This document shows positions 19,860 to 50,710 of a DNA stretch of 64,000 nt, piece after piece. Each line of letters begins with the position of its first letter. Position 1 is the first letter of the stretch. The notes below the pieces were generated by a model, which searched no databases, was not told the origin of the DNA, and worked only from the letters and a program-made list of their open reading frames with translations. This DNA comes from Emydura subglobosa (taxonomy: Eukaryota; Chordata; Testudines; Chelidae), in the NCBI GenBank assembly GCA_007922225.1, contig ML679958.1, positions 54,950,838 through 55,014,837 on the forward strand, given 5' to 3'. The position numbers and the translations under genes were made by a program.

Positions 19860-20185
19860 CATTTCCAGTTAAGCTGGCAGTGTTAAGAGTGCTCCTGTGG
19901 GACTACCTCAGCAAAGCTGATGGGGCAGATTGAAGGCAGGGTTTAATGGGGTTGGGCGGTTCTGATCCCTGTTATGTTTAACATCATAATAATAAACGAA
20001 ATCTGGCCAGGATTTGGCTATATTGTTAAGATAATGATTCTGCAAGAATGACTTGAGGTAGAGTGGCGAACTTGTGGTGTTTTGCCCGGAGCATTGGCCC
20101 CCAAGAAGTCTCCAGGAAATATAGATTATTTCATCACCTTTCTGGGGTTGATAATGGCATAGCAGACGCCTTATCTCATTTTTCA
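19860..20185 (+). pseudogene. DIRS-like pol remnant: start of RT joined to end of RNase H
   Basis: At 19866-19930 the frame KLAVLRVLLWDY with a following S-K-A-D resembles the opening of DIRS ORF2, just before the reverse transcriptase. At 20146-20182 GVDNGIADALSHF matches the end of the DIRS RNase H domain (V-D-N-x-x-A-D-A-L-S). The roughly 200 bp between are far too short for the RT palm, so the catalytic core is deleted. An extra T near 20183 shifts the frame relative to the recombinase that follows. Confidence 0.65.
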
Positions 20186-20186
20186 G

Positions 20187-20640
20187 ATGCACAGATTTCT
20201 GAAGCTGGCACCTGGTGCTATGGAACCTTGGCTTAGGATGGTTGTCAGTGGCGTGCAGAGATCAGTTGCTCTGCACACATGGCAGAGCTATGAAAGAAGT
20301 TTTAATGATTTCATGCAAGCTCAGGATCATGAAGGCCAGTCAATAATTTGGCCCATTGCAAAGGAGCAGGTGCTGCGGTACATGTTGTCATTGACAACAC
20401 ATCAACTGTCGGCCTCGACAATCTCGAATCACCTTTCTACCATTACATTCATCAGCAGGCTAAAGGGTTATGCAGATCCTTGCAGTGTTTTTTTAGTTCA
20501 AAGGTTTATGGTGAGGTGGTTGCATACCAGGGGCCCCAGGGAGGATTCACATACTCCCATCACAGTTTACATGCTCAGGGATCTCGTGCAGCTGAGGCTG
20601 GGAGTGTGGCCATGGTTGGGAAGGGGCTGCGGCTGGGAGA
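20187..20640 (+). pseudogene. DIRS-like tyrosine recombinase, N-terminal half
   Basis: Tyrosine recombinases integrate the circular DNA copies of DIRS-type retrotransposons in place of a DDE integrase. The reading frame starts QMHRFLKLAPGA directly after the RNase H end, as in DIRS elements. It continues with the recombinase core-binding region: TWQSYERSFNDF near residues 32-43, WPIAKEQVLRYM (55-66), STISNHLSTITFISRLKGYADP (77-98) and a PITVYMLRDL-like helix (123-132). After about residue 135 the sequence changes into unrelated Gly/Trp-rich text, so the catalytic half with the R-H-R-Y residues is missing. The family call is strong; the gene is non-functional. Confidence 0.78.
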
Positions 20641-20680
20641 TAGGCCATGGTTGGGGGTCTATGGTTGAGGCTGGGGGCCA

Positions 20681-21400
20681 ACACTGACTCCGGGGACTCC
20701 AGGGACCTTGGGGACCACGGTGGCTGGTGGCTGTGGTGGGTCCCAGTGGTCAGGAGCCAGGCCTTGGCAGGAGCTGGACACCAAGAGTAGGGACAGTCTG
20801 ACTTGGGCCACTCTCCCCCACTGTTTGTAGATGGCCCTGTGTGTTTATTTATCCACTGCACCATTTACATGTTGCCACCTTGACTTGTGGATTTCTTGTG
20901 TAGTGAGTGCTGCTGTCAGACACACTCACTTATCAGCTTTTTCTATTACCTTATATCATTTTTCCAGGGTAGCCAGCATGGTACTTTGACTCCTCACAGA
21001 CTATAACCTTTTTTTTTTTTATTTTATTTTATTTTTTTTTGAAAAAGGTTTATGGATCTTCGGTGTGGAACTACTTTTATGCTGTCAGACAGTATAGCAC
21101 ACATCATACAAAGCAAGTGGTTTTGGCTACACCCTAGAATTTTAACTTATCAACTACACATTACTGGGAGATCCTTAAGGACATATGCACATTGGAGATT
21201 TCACTTTCATTCCAAACATATTTGCTTTTGTGAATTCAAGGCAGGGACACAGTGGTAAATCTTCAAAGCCCTGCATAGGTTTTCAGCTCCAAAAACTCAT
21301 GTTAATTTCAATAGTCCATATGTTTTATTGGGTTACAGGCAATAGAGGCTACTTTCATTATATAACTTTCTTAAACATTGTTTCAACAGCTACAGCTTTG
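20681..21400. other. Unassigned GC-richer edge, then AT-rich DNA with a T-rich run
   Basis: 20681-20870 is GC-rich and of unknown origin; it may be a replaced 3' part of the DIRS relic. Near 21001-21053 a T-rich tract is bounded by ATAACCTTTTTT and its near complement AAAAAGGTTTAT, giving a possible hairpin. Confidence 0.4.
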
Positions 21401-23144: not shown

Positions 23145-23528
23145 CTATAACCCCAGATCCCTTTCCACATAATTTCTTCCTGGGGAGTCATTTCCCATGA
23201 TGTATGTGTGCAGTTGATTGTTCCTTCCTAAATGGAGTACTTTGCATTTGTCTTTATTGAATTTCCTCTTATTTACTTCAAACCATTTCTGCAGTTTGCC
23301 CAGATCATTTTGAATTTTAATCCTATCCTCCAAAGCGCTTGCAACCCTTCCCAGCTTAGTATCATCTGCAAACTTTATAAGTGTACTCCCTATGCCATTA
23401 TATAAATTATTGATGAAGTTATTGAACAGAACCAGATCCGAAACAGATCCAGGCAGGACCCCACTCGATATGACCCAATATCTTGACTGTGAAATTCTGG
23501 TGACTATTCTCTGGGAATGGTTTTCCAA
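23145..23528 (-). pseudogene. CR1 reverse transcriptase, palm/thumb part
   Basis: The frame shows GVLPGSVSDLVLFNNFIN, equivalent to the CR1 G-V-P-Q-G-S-V-L-G-P-L-L-F segment. About 20 residues later it has the catalytic FADD in LIKFADDTKLG, then the conserved KWFEVNKRKFNKDKCKVLHL segment. These form the RT palm and its C-terminal extension. The catalytic pair of aspartates is intact, but the neighbouring part at 23639-23881 is in another frame and stops interrupt the 3' side. The enzyme would copy LINE RNA at a nicked target; this copy is dead. Confidence 0.88.
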
Positions 23529-23638
23529 CCAATTATGCCTCCACCTTACAGTAGCTTCATTTGGGTATACCTAGTTTGTTTATGAGACGGTCATTGAGAC
23601 AGTAACAGAAGCCTCACCATAGTCAAGATATACCACAT

Positions 23639-23881
23639 CTACCTCTTCATCCCTATCCCTAAGGCTTTTTTTACCTTGTCAAAGAGCTTTATTAAGTTGA
23701 TTTGACATGATTTGTTCTTGACAAATCCAAGTTCACTGTTACTTATCAACTTATTATCTTCTAGGTGTTTGCAAATTACTTGCTTGATTATTTGCTTCAT
23801 TATCTTTCTGGGTACTAAAGTTAGGCTGACTAGTCTGTAATTTCCTGGGTTGTTTTTATTCCCCTTTTCATAGATTGGCAC
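23639..23881 (-). pseudogene. CR1 reverse transcriptase, finger part
   Basis: The start [20 protein letters not shown] corresponds to the CR1 RT opening (P-x-x-K-K-G-x-x-x-x-P-x-N-Y-R-P-V-S-L-T). It is followed by a helix and the NSELGFVKNKSCQINLI segment that resembles the usual N-S-Q-x-G-F-x-K-G-K-S-C-x-T-N-L. It lies just upstream, on the minus strand, of the palm part at 23145-23528, from which it is separated by stops and a frameshift. Confidence 0.85.
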
Positions 23882-24239
23882 TATATTTGCCCTCTTTCAG
23901 TCCCCTGCAATCTCTCCTGTCTTCCGAATTTTTGAAGATAATCACTAATGGTTCAGATATCTCCTCTGTCAGCTCCTTGAATATTCTAGGATGTATTTCA
24001 TCAGGCCCTGTCAACTTGAAGACATCTAACTTGTCTAAGTAATTTTTAACTTGTTCTTTCCCTATTTTAGCCTCAGATCCTATCTCATTTTCACTTACGT
24101 GATTTAAAGCATGTAAACACAGTTTGGTAACTTCTAGCTAATGGGCCAAACTTTCAAAAGCTTATCCTAGGCAGGTTTCCCATTGTGGCAGGAAACATGG
24201 ATGAACTGCATAGGCTGTTCCTTCAAATGGATGCTCTGT

Positions 24240-24780
24240 GTGTGATGCTGTATGATTAAAATATGACCATGCATGTCATTGTTGCTACCACTGTTATATA
24301 ATTGCAACAAACCTTATACAAAGTATGTCATATAAGTTATCAATGGAAAAGTTACAATTTATCAAATATCATTATACTATTTGTATGTATGCATCATCTT
24401 TGTATACGAAGTTTTGAATATTGACTATTTACCTGTATTTCAAATGTGTTTGCTCCTGGGTAATACCCACAAGGTAGTTTGTATCCCATCTAGCCAGCCC
24501 ATTGTGAATGGACTATTCAAGTTGATGCCTCATCAGAGAACACTTAGCTCTTACAATAGGATATAGAAGAAGCTCATCCCCGCCTGATGAGCCTTCCTGT
24601 GGATATTTTAGCCAGAATATGGGTAATGGCTGCTCCTATGACTCAACAAAGCATGCAAGGGAATGTGACCTGCTCACGTGACCCTGGATTCCATCTTATG
24701 CCTGTAATTTTCCACAAATTAAAAAGGCTGTTAAAAAGAACTGACCGACAAGCCACCTCTTTTTATACCCGGCTGTTGTT
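24240..24780. mobile_element. Dispersed, LTR-like sequence bordering the viral relic
   Basis: The text (TTTGTATGTATGCATCATC, GAATATTGACTATTTACC, TTTCAAATGTGTTTGCTCC, CTGCTCACGTGACCCTGG, ending near TTATACCCGGCTG) resembles a dispersed repeat I associate with turtle retroviral LTRs, but I cannot name the family. It abuts the end of the ATPase-like frame near 24780. No internal retroelement genes are attached. Confidence 0.4.
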
Positions 24781-25424
24781 CTTTTAAAGTGTAAACCGCC
24801 AGCCAGTCTGGAGGGAAAAGACTGGTTCTTAATCTATAAGCCTCTGGTGTTGAAGCATTTAAATCCACCATGAAGTAGCCGTAAGGTTTTTTGGTAGCAT
24901 TCTCAAAAGCTTTTAGAAAGAATTGCATCTTGCTGGGTTACATTTGCCGAGTGAGCATGGTGATTTGTAATTTATCCCTGGGGTTTCTAAACACAACCAT
25001 GTACTTGGCGTTTAGGTTAATCGTGCAACTCTTTTTTCCCCTGACAAAACACGTTCTGAACTATATACATAATGCTCAGGTTCCTGTGATGCACATACTT
25101 GGTAAAGGCTTTCTCAGTTTCATTGCTTTCACAAGCAGAGTTCATCATATCGTCTACGATAACCATATTTACTTTATTGGTGGGAAACAAACGGTCATTG
25201 TCAAAAGCATCAGACAGTCCCTCTACAAAATTGATAAAGGGATATTTACCGAGCAGTTCTTTATACAGAGGCTGCCAACAACTGTAACACCACATGATGT
25301 TCTCAGACATGACAGACAACAGTCACTCAGCGTTATCCAACACATTTTTTATAAAGTAACTTTTCCCGCAGTTGCTAGACCCCGCGAGAATTATAGAAAA
25401 TGGGTGTTTCCACCACATGTTCAT
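24731..25424 (-). pseudogene. FtsK/HerA-like packaging ATPase (Polinton/adintovirus-like), inactivated
   Basis: In the family this ATPase drives genome packaging into the capsid. The start ATG (25424-25422) shares ATGA with the polymerase stop (25423-25421), which fixes the start. A Walker A loop GSSNCGKS lies about 15-22 residues in. A Walker B-like strand NMVIVDDMM follows near 25165-25140, and then HHRNLSIMYIVQNVF with Q-G-K, the sensor-like helix and strand of this ATPase group. The C-terminal part FENATKKPYGYFMVDL (24907-24860) is also typical. Breaks are an in-frame TGA at 25323-25325, a frameshift near 25030, and a TAA at 24938-24940 followed by another open segment. The last residues, beyond about 24782, run into unrelated repeat sequence. 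Length, roughly 215-230 codons, suits the family. Confidence 0.85.
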
Positions 25425-28400
25425 TTTTCAAAAAAGATGTAGGGCAGCGTTTTAAACCCTTCTCTGAGGACCCTCTTGTTGTAAACGACTTTCTGCATTT
25501 TCTTAAGGGTCTTTGTCTCTATTTGCCACTGGTTTTTGTTCCTCACGATAGAGGGTTGCTGCACCTCTGTTTTTTTGGAGGTGCTTTCCCCCAGGTCGGC
25601 GCTATAGTGCAGGACCAGATCTTTCAAACTGTAAAAATTAATCTTTTCACAGTTTTCTATGTTCCGGGTAAACCCTTTGACTTTCATACAGGCCTTTCTT
25701 CCCAACAGCTTGTACTCATACGTTTTTGGACCGGCTGACACAAACGCGGTGATGTGCTGATCTGGCAGGATTTCGCTTGTGAGGTCCCATAAATAATCCC
25801 CCTGAGGTGGATGCCAGTCAACCTCCCATTGCACAAATATCACCAAGTCTGTGTCATGGTACAGGCACCACTCTTGCAACCTGTCTAACAGGTTGTACAG
25901 TTCCAAACGGGCATAAGCGGTGGAGAAACAGGCAATGAAGACATCGGTATTGCCAGAGACCGAGTAGCGGTCTTTCGCATGCTTCCAAGACATGCATGCT
26001 GTTTCATCATCGATAAACCCACTGAATGAAACTTTGAAACTGGGGGAAAACAGGTACTCAAAGAGTTCATCAGGGTCTCTCACGTGGCTCGTCTTGGGCA
26101 GGTTTGTTCTTTTGCTGAATTTACCTCGCAGAGAATTTAAAAACAGTTTAGCGATTTGACGCTTAGTAGGGTTCAGGGTGATTTCGTGCAGGCATAAACG
26201 CACGCCTTCTTTCTGATAAAAATCATTAACTTATTTTGCCTTTCTTCCTCCGCATGCCAGCTGGGATACCCCAAAGACTCTTGTTTCTGATGCAGGTGTA
26301 ATTTTATGTACTCTGAAAAGAGTTTGTCAGATTTTTCTTCGAAATGCCAGATTTCGTAGATTTTTGCCACCATGTACCCCTTCGCTACGGCCACGTTCAG
26401 TTCCACCATGCACCAAGTCCCCAGGAGGGCCCGTTCCCTGTTAGTGTGGGTGCACGTCTCCTGCTGCTCGGTTTCTGCACAGGTTCAACATAGCGTGAAC
26501 GTGAGTTTGCCACCCACTCTGACAGGCAACAATGGGAAAAAGAGCCCTTGTGGGGGGTACACTTTAACTTTTGCGATTCCAAAATAATTTATGAGAGGTC
26601 CAAATTTGTCACCAATGATATCGGGGTGTCAGATAGGATATTCTTTGGTTTTGTTTATGAAAGGGTACAGACTGGTAAAATTGTAATAGGGGATTTCTTC
26701 ACCAGGGTTAGGTTTGTAATATAGACAGATGGCATTAGTCCTACCCCCAAGAAGAGCATCCCTTGGGACCAGAGGCTGAGGCAACTGTGCTTCGTTTAAC
26801 AAATCCGCAAACTCCATATCCGTTTCTATCATCACCGCCCATTCGTGTCCCCAGAGAGTCCTGACTACATATCCTAGTCTTTTCAGATAGTTGGTCTTGA
26901 GTTTCATTTTGTAATAAAGAAACCCGAAAGTCATCCCTGACATAGGGTTCAGGGGTTTTTCACGGTAACAGGTGACGCAGTCGTGAAAAAAAACACCCAT
27001 TAAACTCAAAGGCTGTGAATACCCCATCAACGAAGGCATAACCATCTAGAAAGTAGGGGCTTACCTGTAAATCCCCACCCCCTAACGTGTGACATATCTC
27101 TAAATTTTCTTTGTGAGTGGTATACAGCAGCCACTGAATAGACAAGGTCGAATATCTCTTTTTCTGCCGGTGATAGTTGTCGAGAGGGAGACGGGCTACC
27201 ATGTTAGACTCTAAAAACATAAATCTTTACATGGCCATCCAGACGGATGCCAGAGTTATGTATTGGAAAGGATCTACACACAATTTCACCTCCACAAATG
27301 TGCCAGAGCCTCTCTCTACCACATCTGATTTGGCCGTCATTTCACAATCTCTTCTCTGTACAGCATACAGGCCTGTCTCAAAATTTTGACATCCTGCTGA
27401 CAGTAATATGCAAGCTCTTTCTGCAAATCAAACATATCATTTTAGTGGTCCCGGTACCAGTCGAAAAAGTTTGCTTTCTCCCGGGGCATCATGCTGTCGA
27501 TGCTGTAGTGCTCCACCCCGGCCACAGGTCCCACGTAATTTTGGTTTTCTAGTGTTAAAAAAATGTGGAAGTACCCTTTGCAGCCTTCAAAACCCATAGC
27601 CTGGGGGAGCTTGTTAAGCTTCATGGGCAGGAAGTTTAACTAATCTATAAAACGGATACCCAGAGTCTTAACTTCCATGCACAACAATTTACTGCCCTGT
27701 GTTATCAACTCTATGCCCATCTTTTCCTTCAGTAATTCCCTGAGGACAAAGTAAGCGTTGTAACCTTTGGAATTGTGCGCTATGAATGTGTAGCCCCAAA
27801 ACTTTTTGCCGATAAAGGTTTGAACGAAATTAGAAAAAAGCACTACCGGCCCTTAAATTCACGAGATTTTTCCGACTTTAGGGACATAGCCAAAATGTAA
27901 TTGGGCACGTGCAACCCCGTCTCCTGCATGCACTCAAAATCATTAAAAAAAATATACTTTTCTGACTTTTCGGGCTTTCTAATGCTGTCCATAAAACACA
28001 CATGACCATCTACACCACCAGTGTTGAAACTGTGACACTGCTTACAGTGCCCTCCTTTGCACTTTTGCCCTTTGTCCACCTAAGATTGATACTTATCACA
28101 CAAAGTTTTAGACAGGCATTTGATTTGATTTTTGGACACAGCTTCTGCATGACCGTCAAAACACTCTTGGGACCGACAATAAAGTCTGCAGCTAGGACAT
28201 CTCAGCAGTATGCCCAGATTGTCCAAACATGTCGTGCTCAAGCAGAGGCGGCAACGGTATCTGCAAGAGTGGTCGTGACTGAACACCGTGTGACAAAACT
28301 CACAATAATTTTTTGCCCCAACAACCATTTCACATCCAAAACCCCATAGTAATGCTCATCGTGCAGCGGGATGAAAAATGTCTTGGGGTACACTGGATCC

Positions 28401-29302
28401 CCCATTTTAAAAAAAAAAACCCACCTCCCTTTCGTTGTGTAAAGCACCACCTGTATGTTGACACGCAAATGCTGTTCAAGTGCCGCCACATCACGGAGCA
28501 TAACCTTTTTGTCTGACCAACCCAATTTTTCATGCAACTTTCTAGCCCCATCTAACAATTATGCATTTTTAGGTTTGCGGTCAGACATGACGGCCAAGAG
28601 CCCGCCCACAAAACACAGATTGGTACCGGTGTAAGCTAGGTCCACTAAACACTGTCTCTTTTTATGGACTATTTGACTGTTGAGAATAGAGTTTAAAACC
28701 CTATGGCCGCCCCCAACCTTGTTTTTCACAACCATCACAATGAGGCATAATGTCCCGTCAACGTACAACTCTCTGTTACTCTGCAACAGTTTAGAGGCCT
28801 AATTTAAGAAATCCTCAACAGACAGGTCGTCCCTATTTCTTCTGACTGAAATTGTTTAAATTGTAAATTAGGATTGTTTAAATTATGACCCTCTAAACAT
28901 AATCGTCCGGGTCTAGCCTGATGTTACAGTCGGTTCTCAATGATGTTACCTCCTGTGCATGGCTTCAATAACCTGCTCAGCTGAATTGATTCACTCAAGA
29001 TTGACAAAACAAAATTCCTCACAATACACCGAACCCCTAAATCTAGGTAACTCCCTTTGCCAGCTTCTCACCTGCTCCATATACACATCGGGGCTGGGGT
29101 CATTTGGGGGTTTCTCTACGGGACCATTTTCTAGGTCAGACTCCAAAGGGCCATCAGGAGCAGATGGGGACCCACCTAGAGAGCTTTCTAAATCAGAGTC
29201 ATCACCACCCCGCAAGTCAGTTTCTACCTCCCCATTCTCAGACATGCCAGTTTGAGAATCTCCACAAGGAGGCATCTCTTTTTGTTTTTCTCTCCTTATC
29301 AC
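25421..29302 (-). pseudogene. Protein-primed-type family B DNA polymerase (Polinton/adintovirus-like), inactivated
   Basis: The family copies the element's own linear DNA from a protein primer. Minus-strand order: an acidic N-terminal part (29302-28991); LHEKLG and HDEHYYGV segments (28558-28300); a Cys-rich finger region (28328-28080); exonuclease motifs FFNDFEC (near 27945), HNSKGYNAYF (near 27765) and YYCQQDVKIL (27405-27380); polymerase motif A YYNFTSLYPF (26688-26659); a C-x2-C...C-H finger near 26490-26430; motif B KLFLNSLRGKF (from 26149); and motif C YHDTDLVIF (from 25861). The span of about 1,290 codons is near full length. In-frame stops include 28799, 28559, 28080, 27640, 27442, 27337, 27227, 26629 and 26485. 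Frameshifts lie near 28840, 28310, 27845, 27300, 26995 and 26215. Motif A and the second exonuclease motif have Asn where the family has catalytic Asp. Confidence 0.88.
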
Positions 29303-29860
29303 CTCTTTAGCCTTTTAAAAAATTTTTACAATGGCTCTGGCCCATAACTTTTTGGCAGCTGTCCATCTATTCCTCAAATGATGTCCCCCTTTTTGATTAC
29401 ACTTTAACGGTCGGGTGCCCCTTTTTGTGACTAGTTGTGCAGCTTTAGAGCCACCCTCTGGAAAACTGAAATATTTTTCAACATATTTATCAAGAGCTTT
29501 TGTATTTTTACATGGTTTCTGGTTATTCTTTCTTCCGAAACCCTGGAGAACACAGCGCCCATCCGCTCTCTGAACGAAGCATCATATTTTTCCCACATCT
29601 TTTTAGAATACCAAAAAGCTGCATCAAACATATTGAGGCGGGGACCTGGTTTGTAGTAATTCTCAGATACCGCAGCATCGTGGGAGCTTTCAGTCCTCGG
29701 TTTTCATTCACAACCCCTAGAGGATTGGAGGTAGTGTAGTTCAGCATGTAATGTTCTCTGACTACTGCTTGGTCTGGGCTGAACTTTGGGAGTATGGGAC
29801 AGTGACTTTGGATGAGGTTATTGGAAACTAAATACTTGTTTATTCAATAACACAATTGCA
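29303..29860 (-). pseudogene. Unassigned protein-coding remnant upstream of the polymerase
   Basis: Three minus-strand open segments follow one another: about 29850-29670 (including LNYTTSNPLGVVNENRG), about 29680-29515 (NMFDAAFWYSKKMWEKYDAS) and about 29515-29310 (DKYVEKYFSFPEGGSK, then a basic stretch ending KKLWARAIVKIF). Each looks like natural protein text and the frames change between them, as in a decayed gene. The last segment reads through one in-frame TAA into the acidic N-terminal part assigned to the polymerase, so it could be an N-terminal extension of PolB or a separate gene. I do not recognise the family. The position upstream of a protein-primed polymerase makes a terminal-protein role conceivable, but nothing in the sequence proves it. 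Confidence 0.5.
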
Positions 29861-29884: not shown

Positions 29885-30994
29885 ATGGACCAAGAAACTG
29901 TTCAGGGGGCTTCTGATTTGATCAAATGGAGTCTGGTGGCCTGTCTTTGTTCTTTTACAGGGTGTCTGTATACAACTGATTACAAGCATTATTTAGCATT
30001 TCAGAATCATCTGAGAGATCTTAATAGTCTCTCAACTGCAAGATGGGGAATATGTGGACATGAGGCTCATAAAAGGAAAAAGTTCAGCATCAAAAGAGGA
30101 AGTTGGAATAAGGTAAATTTTCAAAGGACTTTAATAGAAAAGGTGGGTCAGCCTCCTCTGATATATCTGCAGGATGTAAAGAAAAAAGAGACTATAGTGG
30201 GCAATGGTGGGGTTCTGAGTTCCTAGTACTGGCATGTCTGTAGGGACCTTGATAGCATGTTGTGGATAGTTCAGGAATACTACAGTGAGCTCTCTCAGGA
30301 ATAAATGATTTCTCCTTTCCAGCAGCATCAGTTTTTGGATAATACTGCATGTTTTCCAACTTTGGCAGATGGGGAACAGAACTTGCTTGTGAGACTAATA
30401 CAGGAGATGGAGGTTCATGCAGCTAATATGCCAATAAAAGAGTGGACTTCCCCTGGAGCTGACAGATTGACAGCCAAATTCTATCAGTGGTTCATTGATC
30501 TCTTTTCTCTTGTGCTTTCAAGGGCTTTCAGTGATGTTAATTTATTTGTATTACAAGACAACAACAAAGCACATTAGGATCTTCCTTTTATGAAAGCTTT
30601 TAGATTTTTTTCTGTTTTTTTGTCACAAAGCAGGATTTGGAAATTATCCAGAGCTGGAGGGTTATTGCCCTTTTGAACACAGATTACAAAATTGAACATG
30701 GATTACAAAATTTTGGCTTCCATTTAAGACAAGAGACAAGGGAAAATAGCAGGGAAATTATTACATCCCCGTCAGTCTAATGTCATTAAAGGTCACACAA
30801 TGGCAGTCATTTTGTGTAGTTTGCAGGAATTATAAAACCAGGCGACAGGGAGGATGGGAGGTTTATGTTTTGGCCTTGAATCAGGCCAAAGCTTTTGACA
30901 GAGTGAACCTATTTGATTCATTCTATGTGAACTCTGTATTCCTCTATAGTTTATTAACTGGTGACAGATATTGTATGTTCATGCCCTATGCATC
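29885..30994 (+). pseudogene. Tx1/L1-clade LINE ORF2 fragment
   Basis: Broken plus-strand frames give ordered blocks of an L1-clade (Tx1-like) ORF2. These are a basic linker ending near IYLQDVKKKET (about 30160-30190), an IVQEYYSEL block (30268-30294), and a RT opening with WTSPGADRLTAKFYQWF (30442-30492), equivalent to the S-P-G-x-D-G-x-x-x-E-F-Y-K motif. A palm block ALNQAKAFDRVN follows at 30873-30908, equivalent to D-Q-x-K-A-F-D-R-V, in which the first catalytic Asp of the motif is Asn here. The YADD box and all of the 3' half are missing. The fragment begins immediately beside the viral relic and ends at a MITE. Confidence 0.7.
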
Positions 30995-31124
30995 TAGGGT
31001 GACCAGATAGCAAGTGTCAAAAATCAGAACCGGGAGGGGTGTGTGCCTATATAAAGTGCTTACATAAGACAAAGCCCCAAATATCTGGACTGTTCCTATA
31101 AAACTGGGACATCTGGTCACCCTA
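30995..31124. mobile_element. 130-bp MITE with perfect 14-bp TIRs
   Basis: The ends are exact inverted repeats: TAGGGTGACCAGAT (30995-31008) and ATCTGGTCACCCTA (31111-31124). If the outer TA pairs are the target duplication, insertion at TA would fit Tc1/mariner-like chemistry, with 12-bp TIRs GGGTGACCAGAT. There is no coding capacity. A truncated relative lies at 81-172. Confidence 0.9.
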
Positions 31125-44295: not shown

Positions 44296-45411
44296 TGGAG
44301 CTGGATTCACAAAAGGATTAAGGGTCCTAACTGCCATTTTTTGCACCTAAATCCCAGAATCAGGCCCCACTGGGGTTCACAAAACCTCTACTCAGTCACT
44401 GCCAAGATTGCAGGTGTCTAAACTCACTCATTGCCTACATTTTTGCAATAAGAGCTCCCTCTGTTTCTGCCTATAGGCATGAGCACTGAAGCGCTACTCT
44501 AGGCCTCTGGACACCTAAGCCCCATAGCAATGCACATACTGGTTCCTCCAGCTAACTCTCTTATGGGGCCTGATCTGGTAAGTGTGCTTAGAACTCATCG
44601 ACTGGATCAGGCCCTTGAGTTCACACAAAATGGCCGGGGGGGTGGGGAGGACTTCCCTCATACCTTTTAGTCCAATGGATAGCATATTCATCTGGAATGT
44701 AGGAAACCCCCTGAAACTTCAAGTTCCTTTTCCAGCTGAGAAGGAGAAGATATTTGAACAGTGATCTGCTCCATCTCAGATGAGGGCCCCAACCAGTGGG
44801 CTAGTCTCATACAGAGCTCCCTCAGTCTCTCCTGCTGAAGATGTTGCACTCTGGATAAATACTGAAAGAGTCATTGAACCAGACAGAGAGAGTGAAAGAG
44901 AGAGAGAAAGCATAACCGTGATAACAATGCTATAGCCTGGTGGTTAAAGCATTCATGTGGGAGACCCAGATTCCAGTCCCTATGCTCCAAAACCACATCC
45001 TAACTCAGTACCCTAATCACTGAGCTAAAATTTAGGAGGGAATTCATCCCATCCATTGCTTCTAGCAAAACTTGCGTAGGTGCCTATTGCCAAGAGAGAG
45101 TGTGCATCTGAGAATCCTAAACTGAGGATGATTCCTCTCTTCATCCCGGATTTAGGAACCAAACTCCCTAGAGTTTAGGACCCACCCCTCACCTTTCCAC
45201 TCCCATTAGCTAGATTGGATGAGGAGCTGCCTAGCCTGCTGACTATTGTGAATCATAGTCTAAGGCATCTATCACCCTCCTGTCATTGTACAGGAATCCT
45301 AGGTGCCTAGCTCACACTTTGTGAATCATAATGATTTCCTAGGCATCCAAAAGGTAGGTGTGGTGATACTCAGCATCAGTGTGCCTAAATTCCTTTGTGA
45401 ATCTAGCCCTT
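44296..45411. mobile_element. TIR element with internal tRNA-like segments, copy 1 (about 1.1 kb)
   Basis: The left end GCTGGATTCACAAAAGGATT is inverted at the right end as TTCCTTTGTGAATCTAGCCC. Inside are tRNA-like segments, for example TAGCCTGGTGGTTAAAGCAT followed by a B-box-like CCAGATTCCAGTCCC (44933-44980), and TAGTCCAATGGATAGC with CTTCAAGTTCC (44669-44728). The body aligns with copy 2 at 49299-50710 over several blocks, such as CTCTCCTGCTGAAG and GTCATTGAACCAG. No transposase is present. A clean target duplication is not visible. Confidence 0.75.
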
Positions 45412-49298: not shown

Positions 49299-50710
49299 GG
49301 GCTAGATTCGCAGAGGAGCATAGATGTGGCATCGCTGACCATCCCCACACCTAAATTATATGTGCCTATAAAACCACTGGGATTCACAAAGTCTGAGGTG
49401 GGTGCTCTGGCTTCCTATACAATGAATGGAAGGAGACACGTATCTCAGAATAGGATTCAGAAAAGCCAGTATACTAGAGGGCACCTCACCTAAACTAGCC
49501 AATGGGCAATGCCAAAGTGAGGGCTGTGTCCTAATCTTCATCCCTTTCAGGGAGTTCGGCACCTCCTTCTCAGCTACAAATCCTCCCTTGAAGTTAGGCA
49601 CCTCCGTTATTTTTGTGAGGAGGAGGCACTAGTCCTCCCTCATAACTTTTAACCCAGTGGTTAGGATAGTTCCCTGGGACGTTCCCTAGAAGCTGTACTG
49701 TCAGAAGCTGGAACTGAATGACAGGGGATGGATGACTCAATAAATTGCCCTGTTCTGTTAATTCCTTCTGAAGCAGCTGGCACTGGCCACTGTTGGAAAG
49801 CAGGATACTGGACCATTGGTCTGACCCACTGTGACCATTCTTATGTCCTTATGATTTGAGAGACACGCTCCCCTAGTTAAAATCTCCCCCTACACCAGAG
49901 GAGGAGAAGGGATTTACACAGGGATCTTTCACCTCTCATGTAAATGGTCTAGCTGCTGAACTATGGGATTTTCTGACACACAGCTTACCCAATCTCTCCT
50001 GTTGAAACTTTTCTACTGTGGATATACTATTTAAAAAGTCATTGGAGCAGGACGACTGGATCCTGGGTCCTCTACGTCACACATGAGTGCTCTCGCCACC
50101 AGGCTGTAGTCAAACTCATGCTTGTACTTGCTCTTTCTGGCCCAATGACTCTTTCATTATTTAGCCACAGTGCAACAGCTTCACCAGAAGTGATGGAGGA
50201 AGCCCCACCTCAGGATATCTCATAACCCTCTGGTTTGGGCACTTTTCTGGGTGTTGGCAGCTACATGTTGAAACACTTTCTCCCTCTCAGTGAAGAGGGT
50301 TTGAATTGGGGGGGAGGGGCTCTCTAACACAAATACCCTAATTTCTGGGCTAAAAGTTGTGAAGGAGGTTGTCCTTCCACTCCTGAGCAGTTTTGTGTGA
50401 GTTCACATATGGGGTCCAATCCAGTAGGTCAGCCCTGAGCACACTTACCAGATCAGGCTCCACAGGCGGGTAGGTGGAGGAACATCACACTGGGGCTTAG
50501 GCATCCAAAAGCCTAGAATGGGGTTGCCGTTGCCCAAGTGCACAGGAAGAAACATGGGCACTGAGCTAACTTTTACTGTGAAAGTTTAGGCAGCTACAGG
50601 GTTCAGCAGCAGCTGAGAGGTGGTTTTGTGAATCCCAGTGAGGCCTGACACTGGGATTAGGTGCCTAAAGTAGCTGTTAGGCACCTAAATTCTTTTATGA
50701 ATCTAGCCCT
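49299..50710. mobile_element. TIR element with internal tRNA-like segments, copy 2 (about 1.4 kb with insert)
   Basis: The left end GGGCTAGATTCGCAGAGG is inverted at the right end as CTTTTATGAATCTAGCCC. The body aligns with copy 1 at 44296-45411 in the same orientation. It includes the ACCCAGTGGTTAGGATAG tRNA-like A-box region near 49650 and an antisense-like segment around 49930-49970. A CR1 3' end (49683-49858) interrupts it, which accounts for most of the extra length. There is no transposase. Confidence 0.78.
49683..49858 (+). mobile_element. CR1-type LINE 3' end nested in TIR element copy 2
   Basis: The sequence TGGCACTGGCCACTGTTGG, CAGGATACTGGACCATTGG, CTGACCCACTGTGACC and terminal TTCTTATGTCCTTATG matches the tail also seen at 62840-62912. 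It therefore inserted after the TIR element did. Confidence 0.75.

Follow-up and report, generated by a model that had tools for sequence, protein, structure and literature searches.

The broken polymerase gene

The window, by which we mean the whole stretch of 64,000 nucleotides from Emydura subglobosa that was analysed, carries on its minus strand a viral gene for a family B DNA polymerase (PolB), in pieces and broken by stops and frame changes between 25433 and 27735, and beside it an ATPase-like gene that is also broken (Table 1). The 269-residue C-terminal polymerase piece returned 19 matches in a protein search (best E=4.8e-108, 75% identity), in the order Natator depressus (75%), Chrysemys picta (75%), a metagenomic protein and then Alligator and snakes, with shorter matches to Mauremys mutica and Chelonia mydas. 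This piece also matched the DNA polymerase family PHROG 1907 (E=1.9e-11) and Pfam DNA_pol_B_2 (PF03175, E=2.4e-4). A further PF03175 match fell on the middle pieces (E=3.4e-3), and both Pfam matches were under the gathering score.

Table 1. Coordinates of the relic and of the neighbouring LINE remnant in the window
Feature	Positions	Strand	Evidence
Broken packaging-ATPase-like gene	24731..25424	-	Walker A-like and Walker B-like motifs; 45-aa match to P0002
C-terminal piece of PolB, from the regions of motifs B and C to the C terminus	25421..26230	-	269 codons without a stop; PF03175, protein search, PHROG 1907, tree
Middle pieces of PolB, with the motif A region and a Cys-rich insert; frame differs from C-terminal piece, in-frame stops present	26203..27045	-	PF03175 on 26629-27045; tblastn P0021 (61.8% over 27033-26203), P0019 (75%)
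PolB upstream pieces (Exo III region), more frame changes and stops	26960..27735	-	tblastn P0021 (27426-26987, two frames), P0025 (27624-27343), P0056 (27735-27343)
Probable N-terminal part of PolB: Exo I/II-like motifs, Cys-rich stretches, broken frames	27736..28798	-	Motif and position only
LINE (reverse transcriptase) remnant beyond ATPase end, outside the viral relic	23145..24137	-	RVT_1 at 23145-23570 (E=2.1e-5) and 23639-23896 (E=1.3e-4), both under gathering score; 23868-24137 by position

In tblastn at E<=1e-3, 126 of 127 proteins matched the window, a high count that is expected because these queries were retrieved by homology to this PolB; none of the 127 matched the reversed window or any of five dinucleotide-block-shuffled windows. 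The only protein that failed to match (P0020) is not a polymerase. All matches fell within the PolB span, save one extra match in the ATPase-like gene. The sequence-only reading had placed a PolB on the minus strand, and these searches bear this out. None of the 127 proteins reached the probable N-terminal third of the gene (27736-28798), which gave only weak, sub-threshold matches in Pfam and PHROG. Within it, 28238-28798 sits, by position only, where an OTU-like domain would be in an adintovirus, the PolB of these viruses being described in part of PMC11071296 as bearing such a domain at its N terminus.

A 664-aa Alligator protein aligned to the window in four pieces of alternating frame, and the gene therefore contains at least three frame changes besides its in-frame stops. 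Measured against P0021, the reading frame shifts three times or more from 27426 to 25433. The regions that we take to be Exo III and polymerase motifs A, B and C all fall within the span supported by homology; positions that relatives otherwise conserve in A, B and C are altered. Motif C was located in 123 proteins; directly after DTD, 119 of these have serine and the other four, two of which are Mauremys mutica models, have leucine, as the window also does. Given these residue changes and the frame breaks, the polymerase gene is almost surely dead, as judged from its sequence. The exonuclease motifs and Cys-rich fingers claimed earlier fared unevenly: the Exo III region lies in the homology-supported span, and the Exo I-like part and the Cys-rich part lie in the uncovered N-terminal third. 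P0017 and P0018, two Mauremys mutica models from one chromosome, have the window's motif C change, and in both a common acidic N-terminal protein is fused to a short PolB piece.

The predicted structure of the polymerase piece (mean pLDDT 80, from 84 sequences) gave seven matches in BFVD at E<=1e-3, one of them to a MELD virus DNA polymerase B, one to a bidnavirus-like polymerase and others to DNA polymerases labelled as phage or parvovirus; a Foldseek search of the PDB found nothing at that threshold. The PolB alignment matched a Phi29-type protein-primed polymerase (PDB 1xhx) weakly as a profile (E=0.0021), with no single stretch significant. That polymerase is a remote one from another virus group. 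In a phage collection the PolB found one match (30%, E=4e-3), to the protein-primed polymerase of an archaeal virus. Scans of viral contigs yielded no pattern match with the PolB piece, two with a 78-aa exonuclease-region piece (neither a relative) and 10 remote loci at 26-51% identity with the PolB alignment.

The ATPase-like gene and the ends of the relic

The ATPase-like gene follows PolB directly, its ATG overlapping the PolB stop as ATGA (25424-25421), and this is the side-by-side arrangement on the minus strand noted in the sequence-only reading. Before its end at 24731 the gene is interrupted by two in-frame stops and shifts frame once; stops and frame changes are seen in both genes, in line with the decay that had been proposed. 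A Walker A-like P-loop and a Walker B-like strand can be read in its sequence. The sole homology support came from the Chrysemys picta model P0002 (75.6% over 45 residues, E=5e-18), which is annotated as DNA polymerase-like and carries both this PolB and the 45 ATPase residues. The alignment scored 190 against 23 +/- 4 for shuffles, and none of 500 shuffles reached 190. A 101-aa piece of the gene had no Pfam match, its best PHROG (E=0.085) and PDB (E=0.38) matches were not significant and a viral-contig scan with it gave no pattern match. Against the 10 remote PolB loci it produced one weak 11-residue match (E=0.09). As a query, the P0002 tail retrieved P0002 itself and P0020 and no other protein; P0020 also contains the part that follows the ATPase stretch. 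The Walker-like stretches, the position beside PolB and the P0002 match fit the earlier assignment to an FtsK/HerA-like packaging ATPase, and the family and PDB searches gave no significant match; from its sequence, the gene is likely to be one.

The Pfam scan was mostly confined to ORFs of at least 75 aa and took in 125 of these out of 133 in the window, the other eight being plus-strand ORFs antisense to the relic. It gave no match to an integrase (rve), a major or minor capsid protein or an adenovirus-like protease. No credible pair of terminal inverted repeats (TIRs) was present in 15000-45000, where one 34-nt pair at 71% was seen. PM and PZ were not found in the window, and the protein that comes after the ATPase piece (P0020, the P0002 tail) had no window match in tblastn at E<=1e-3. 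Their best match, at 39486-39367 (E=0.16), was taken as chance. Since the remainder of P0002, the integrase, the capsid, the protease and a credible TIR were all not found, the relic is probably truncated after the ATPase. For the same reason, together with the lack of PM and PZ, the name Maverick is carried mainly by the polymerase.

The viral assignment had previously been extended to a right end at 28994-29860, where we recognised nothing viral. The ORFs at 28994-29843 were rejected as viral accessory genes: they had no Pfam match of note, the lone weak one being to the PrP8 snRNA-binding domain (E=0.0019, under the gathering score), and the alignments of three of them were no better than shuffles. 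When these three were aligned with P0020 and with the N-terminal portions of three gene models (two from Mauremys, one from Alligator), 169 to 493 of 500 shuffles reached the score.

Placement and interpretation

A profile search built on nine sequences returned 986 proteins at E<=1e-3. Nearly all of the 120 listed contain the DNA_pol_B_2 domain, and they include proteins of Alligator, Pogona, Xenopus laevis, Bufo, Latimeria and fishes and the PolB of a Pimephales minnow adintovirus. The closest listed matches are from turtles, and no herpesvirus, adenovirus or linear-plasmid PolB is named among these 120, many of which are unnamed. In a tree of 38 rows, picked from the matches (40 selected proteins and the window piece, with three short ones omitted), the window piece grouped with the two turtle copies of Natator and Chrysemys (97/91), and this shows placement within the group only, adenovirus, herpesvirus and plasmid polymerases not being among the rows. 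Alligator, lizard, snake and amphibian copies were near, fishes further away and invertebrates outside. The end branch of the window piece was 0.27, compared with 0.05-0.07 for the two turtle copies, in keeping with a copy in decay.

Fossils of this type have been well described. The parts of Barreat and Katzourakis (PMC8097293) used here report 3,511 Maverick loci mapped in 143 species, 96% of them decayed, with 101 loci (one intact) in Terrapene carolina and fossils that are orthologous among testudinoid turtles. They also describe the polymerase, ATPase, PM and PZ of vertebrate Mavericks as one module, and decayed copies as often lacking TIRs (2,166 elements without discernible ones). In part of PMC9683012, placental mammal Maverick fossils were found by using a box turtle element, and part of PMC10812802 records adintovirus reads from a tortoise and names GenBank BK010890, a box turtle element. 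The window copy resembles the Maverick (Polinton) fossils of turtles such as Terrapene carolina, likened here from the published description and not from sequence, in its PolB family, its adjoining ATPase-like gene, its decay by stops and frame changes and its turtle placement. It differs from them in being truncated and in that integrase, capsid, protease, PM, PZ and TIRs were not found. The Pimephales adintovirus PolB (P0040) is 44% identical to the polymerase piece (E=5.3e-98), but it is an open 619-aa protein in the fish branch of the tree, whereas the window gene is broken. Hexon and integrase, which define adintoviruses in the cited part of PMC11071296, were not found in the window. In the NCBI taxonomy adintoviruses are now Eupolintoviridae, with the genera Alphadintovirus and Betadintovirus.

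We conclude, with a probability of about 0.93, that a DNA virus of the Maverick/adintovirus type left this broken fragment, which is likely to be a truncated insertion in a turtle germline, decayed and non-functional. This conclusion is based on the PolB homology at 25433-27735, the broken frames of both genes, the PolB-ATPase overlap and the turtle placement. The sequence-only reading, which had called the locus a Polinton/Maverick-adintovirus-like relic, agrees with the best listed matches (vertebrate genomic PolBs and a named adintovirus) and with the order of the ATPase-like gene and PolB, which is the published one.

That some other virus was inserted, one whose polymerase is related (bidnavirus-like or adenovirus-like), is very improbable. 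It would fit a locus in which integrase and inverted repeats were not found, and the BFVD matches do include bidnavirus-like and parvovirus-labelled polymerases; the bidnavirus PolB is itself of the alpha-adintovirus type, according to part of PMC11071296. However, the sequence matches, as far as the 120 listed out of 986 go, come from vertebrate genomes and from an adintovirus, the piece is nested among tetrapod copies in the tree and an ATPase-like gene adjoins it. We give slightly less credence still to retention of the 269-codon piece by the host, with its frame kept open by host use. That piece is stop-free, which counted against a decayed relic, and is the longest open one in the PolB region, and several reptiles have annotated gene models of related pieces. 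It nevertheless starts after a frame change, the conserved residues of motifs B and C are changed and the end branch is long. Gene models that cover decayed elements often come from automatic prediction. A host-used remnant of this kind, for example an RNA or protein that might interfere with live turtle adintoviruses, is just as doubtful.

Under the Maverick/adintovirus reading, the living element would have replicated with its protein-primed family B DNA polymerase and packaged its DNA with the neighbouring ATPase, both of which are established for the group. It would have inserted via its own integrase, also established for the group and presumed for the window copy. Truncation past the ATPase, loss of function and ageing probably followed. 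The locus is new, in a well-described turtle fossil record where its kind is already documented, and calling it the most unusual item in the window was too strong. It adds one further record, dated by decay, of a virus group with a long history of infecting turtles; its value would rise only if an orthologous insertion were present in distant turtle families, which would set a minimum age.

Neighbouring elements in the window

The LINE remnant that lies beyond the end of the ATPase-like gene is one that we take to be CR1. At 30305-30577 on the plus strand, an ORF without a Pfam match resembles by eye the beginning of the reverse transcriptase region in a LINE. A 174-aa ORF at 20163-20684 (plus strand) contains a Phage_int_SAM_1 domain (E=1.6e-6, above the gathering score) and is perhaps, we assume, from a DIRS-type tyrosine-recombinase retroelement. 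Inverted, collinear repeats occur at 44300-45374 and 49334-50707, about 71-82% alike in pieces and with about 4 kb between the arms; they may represent one element whose long ends are inverted, or else a single repeat present twice in opposite orientation. Short repeat copies at 77-169 and 30991-31091 are 77% alike over 101 bases, and the second, which ends next to a short inverted motif, appears similar to a small DNA transposon.
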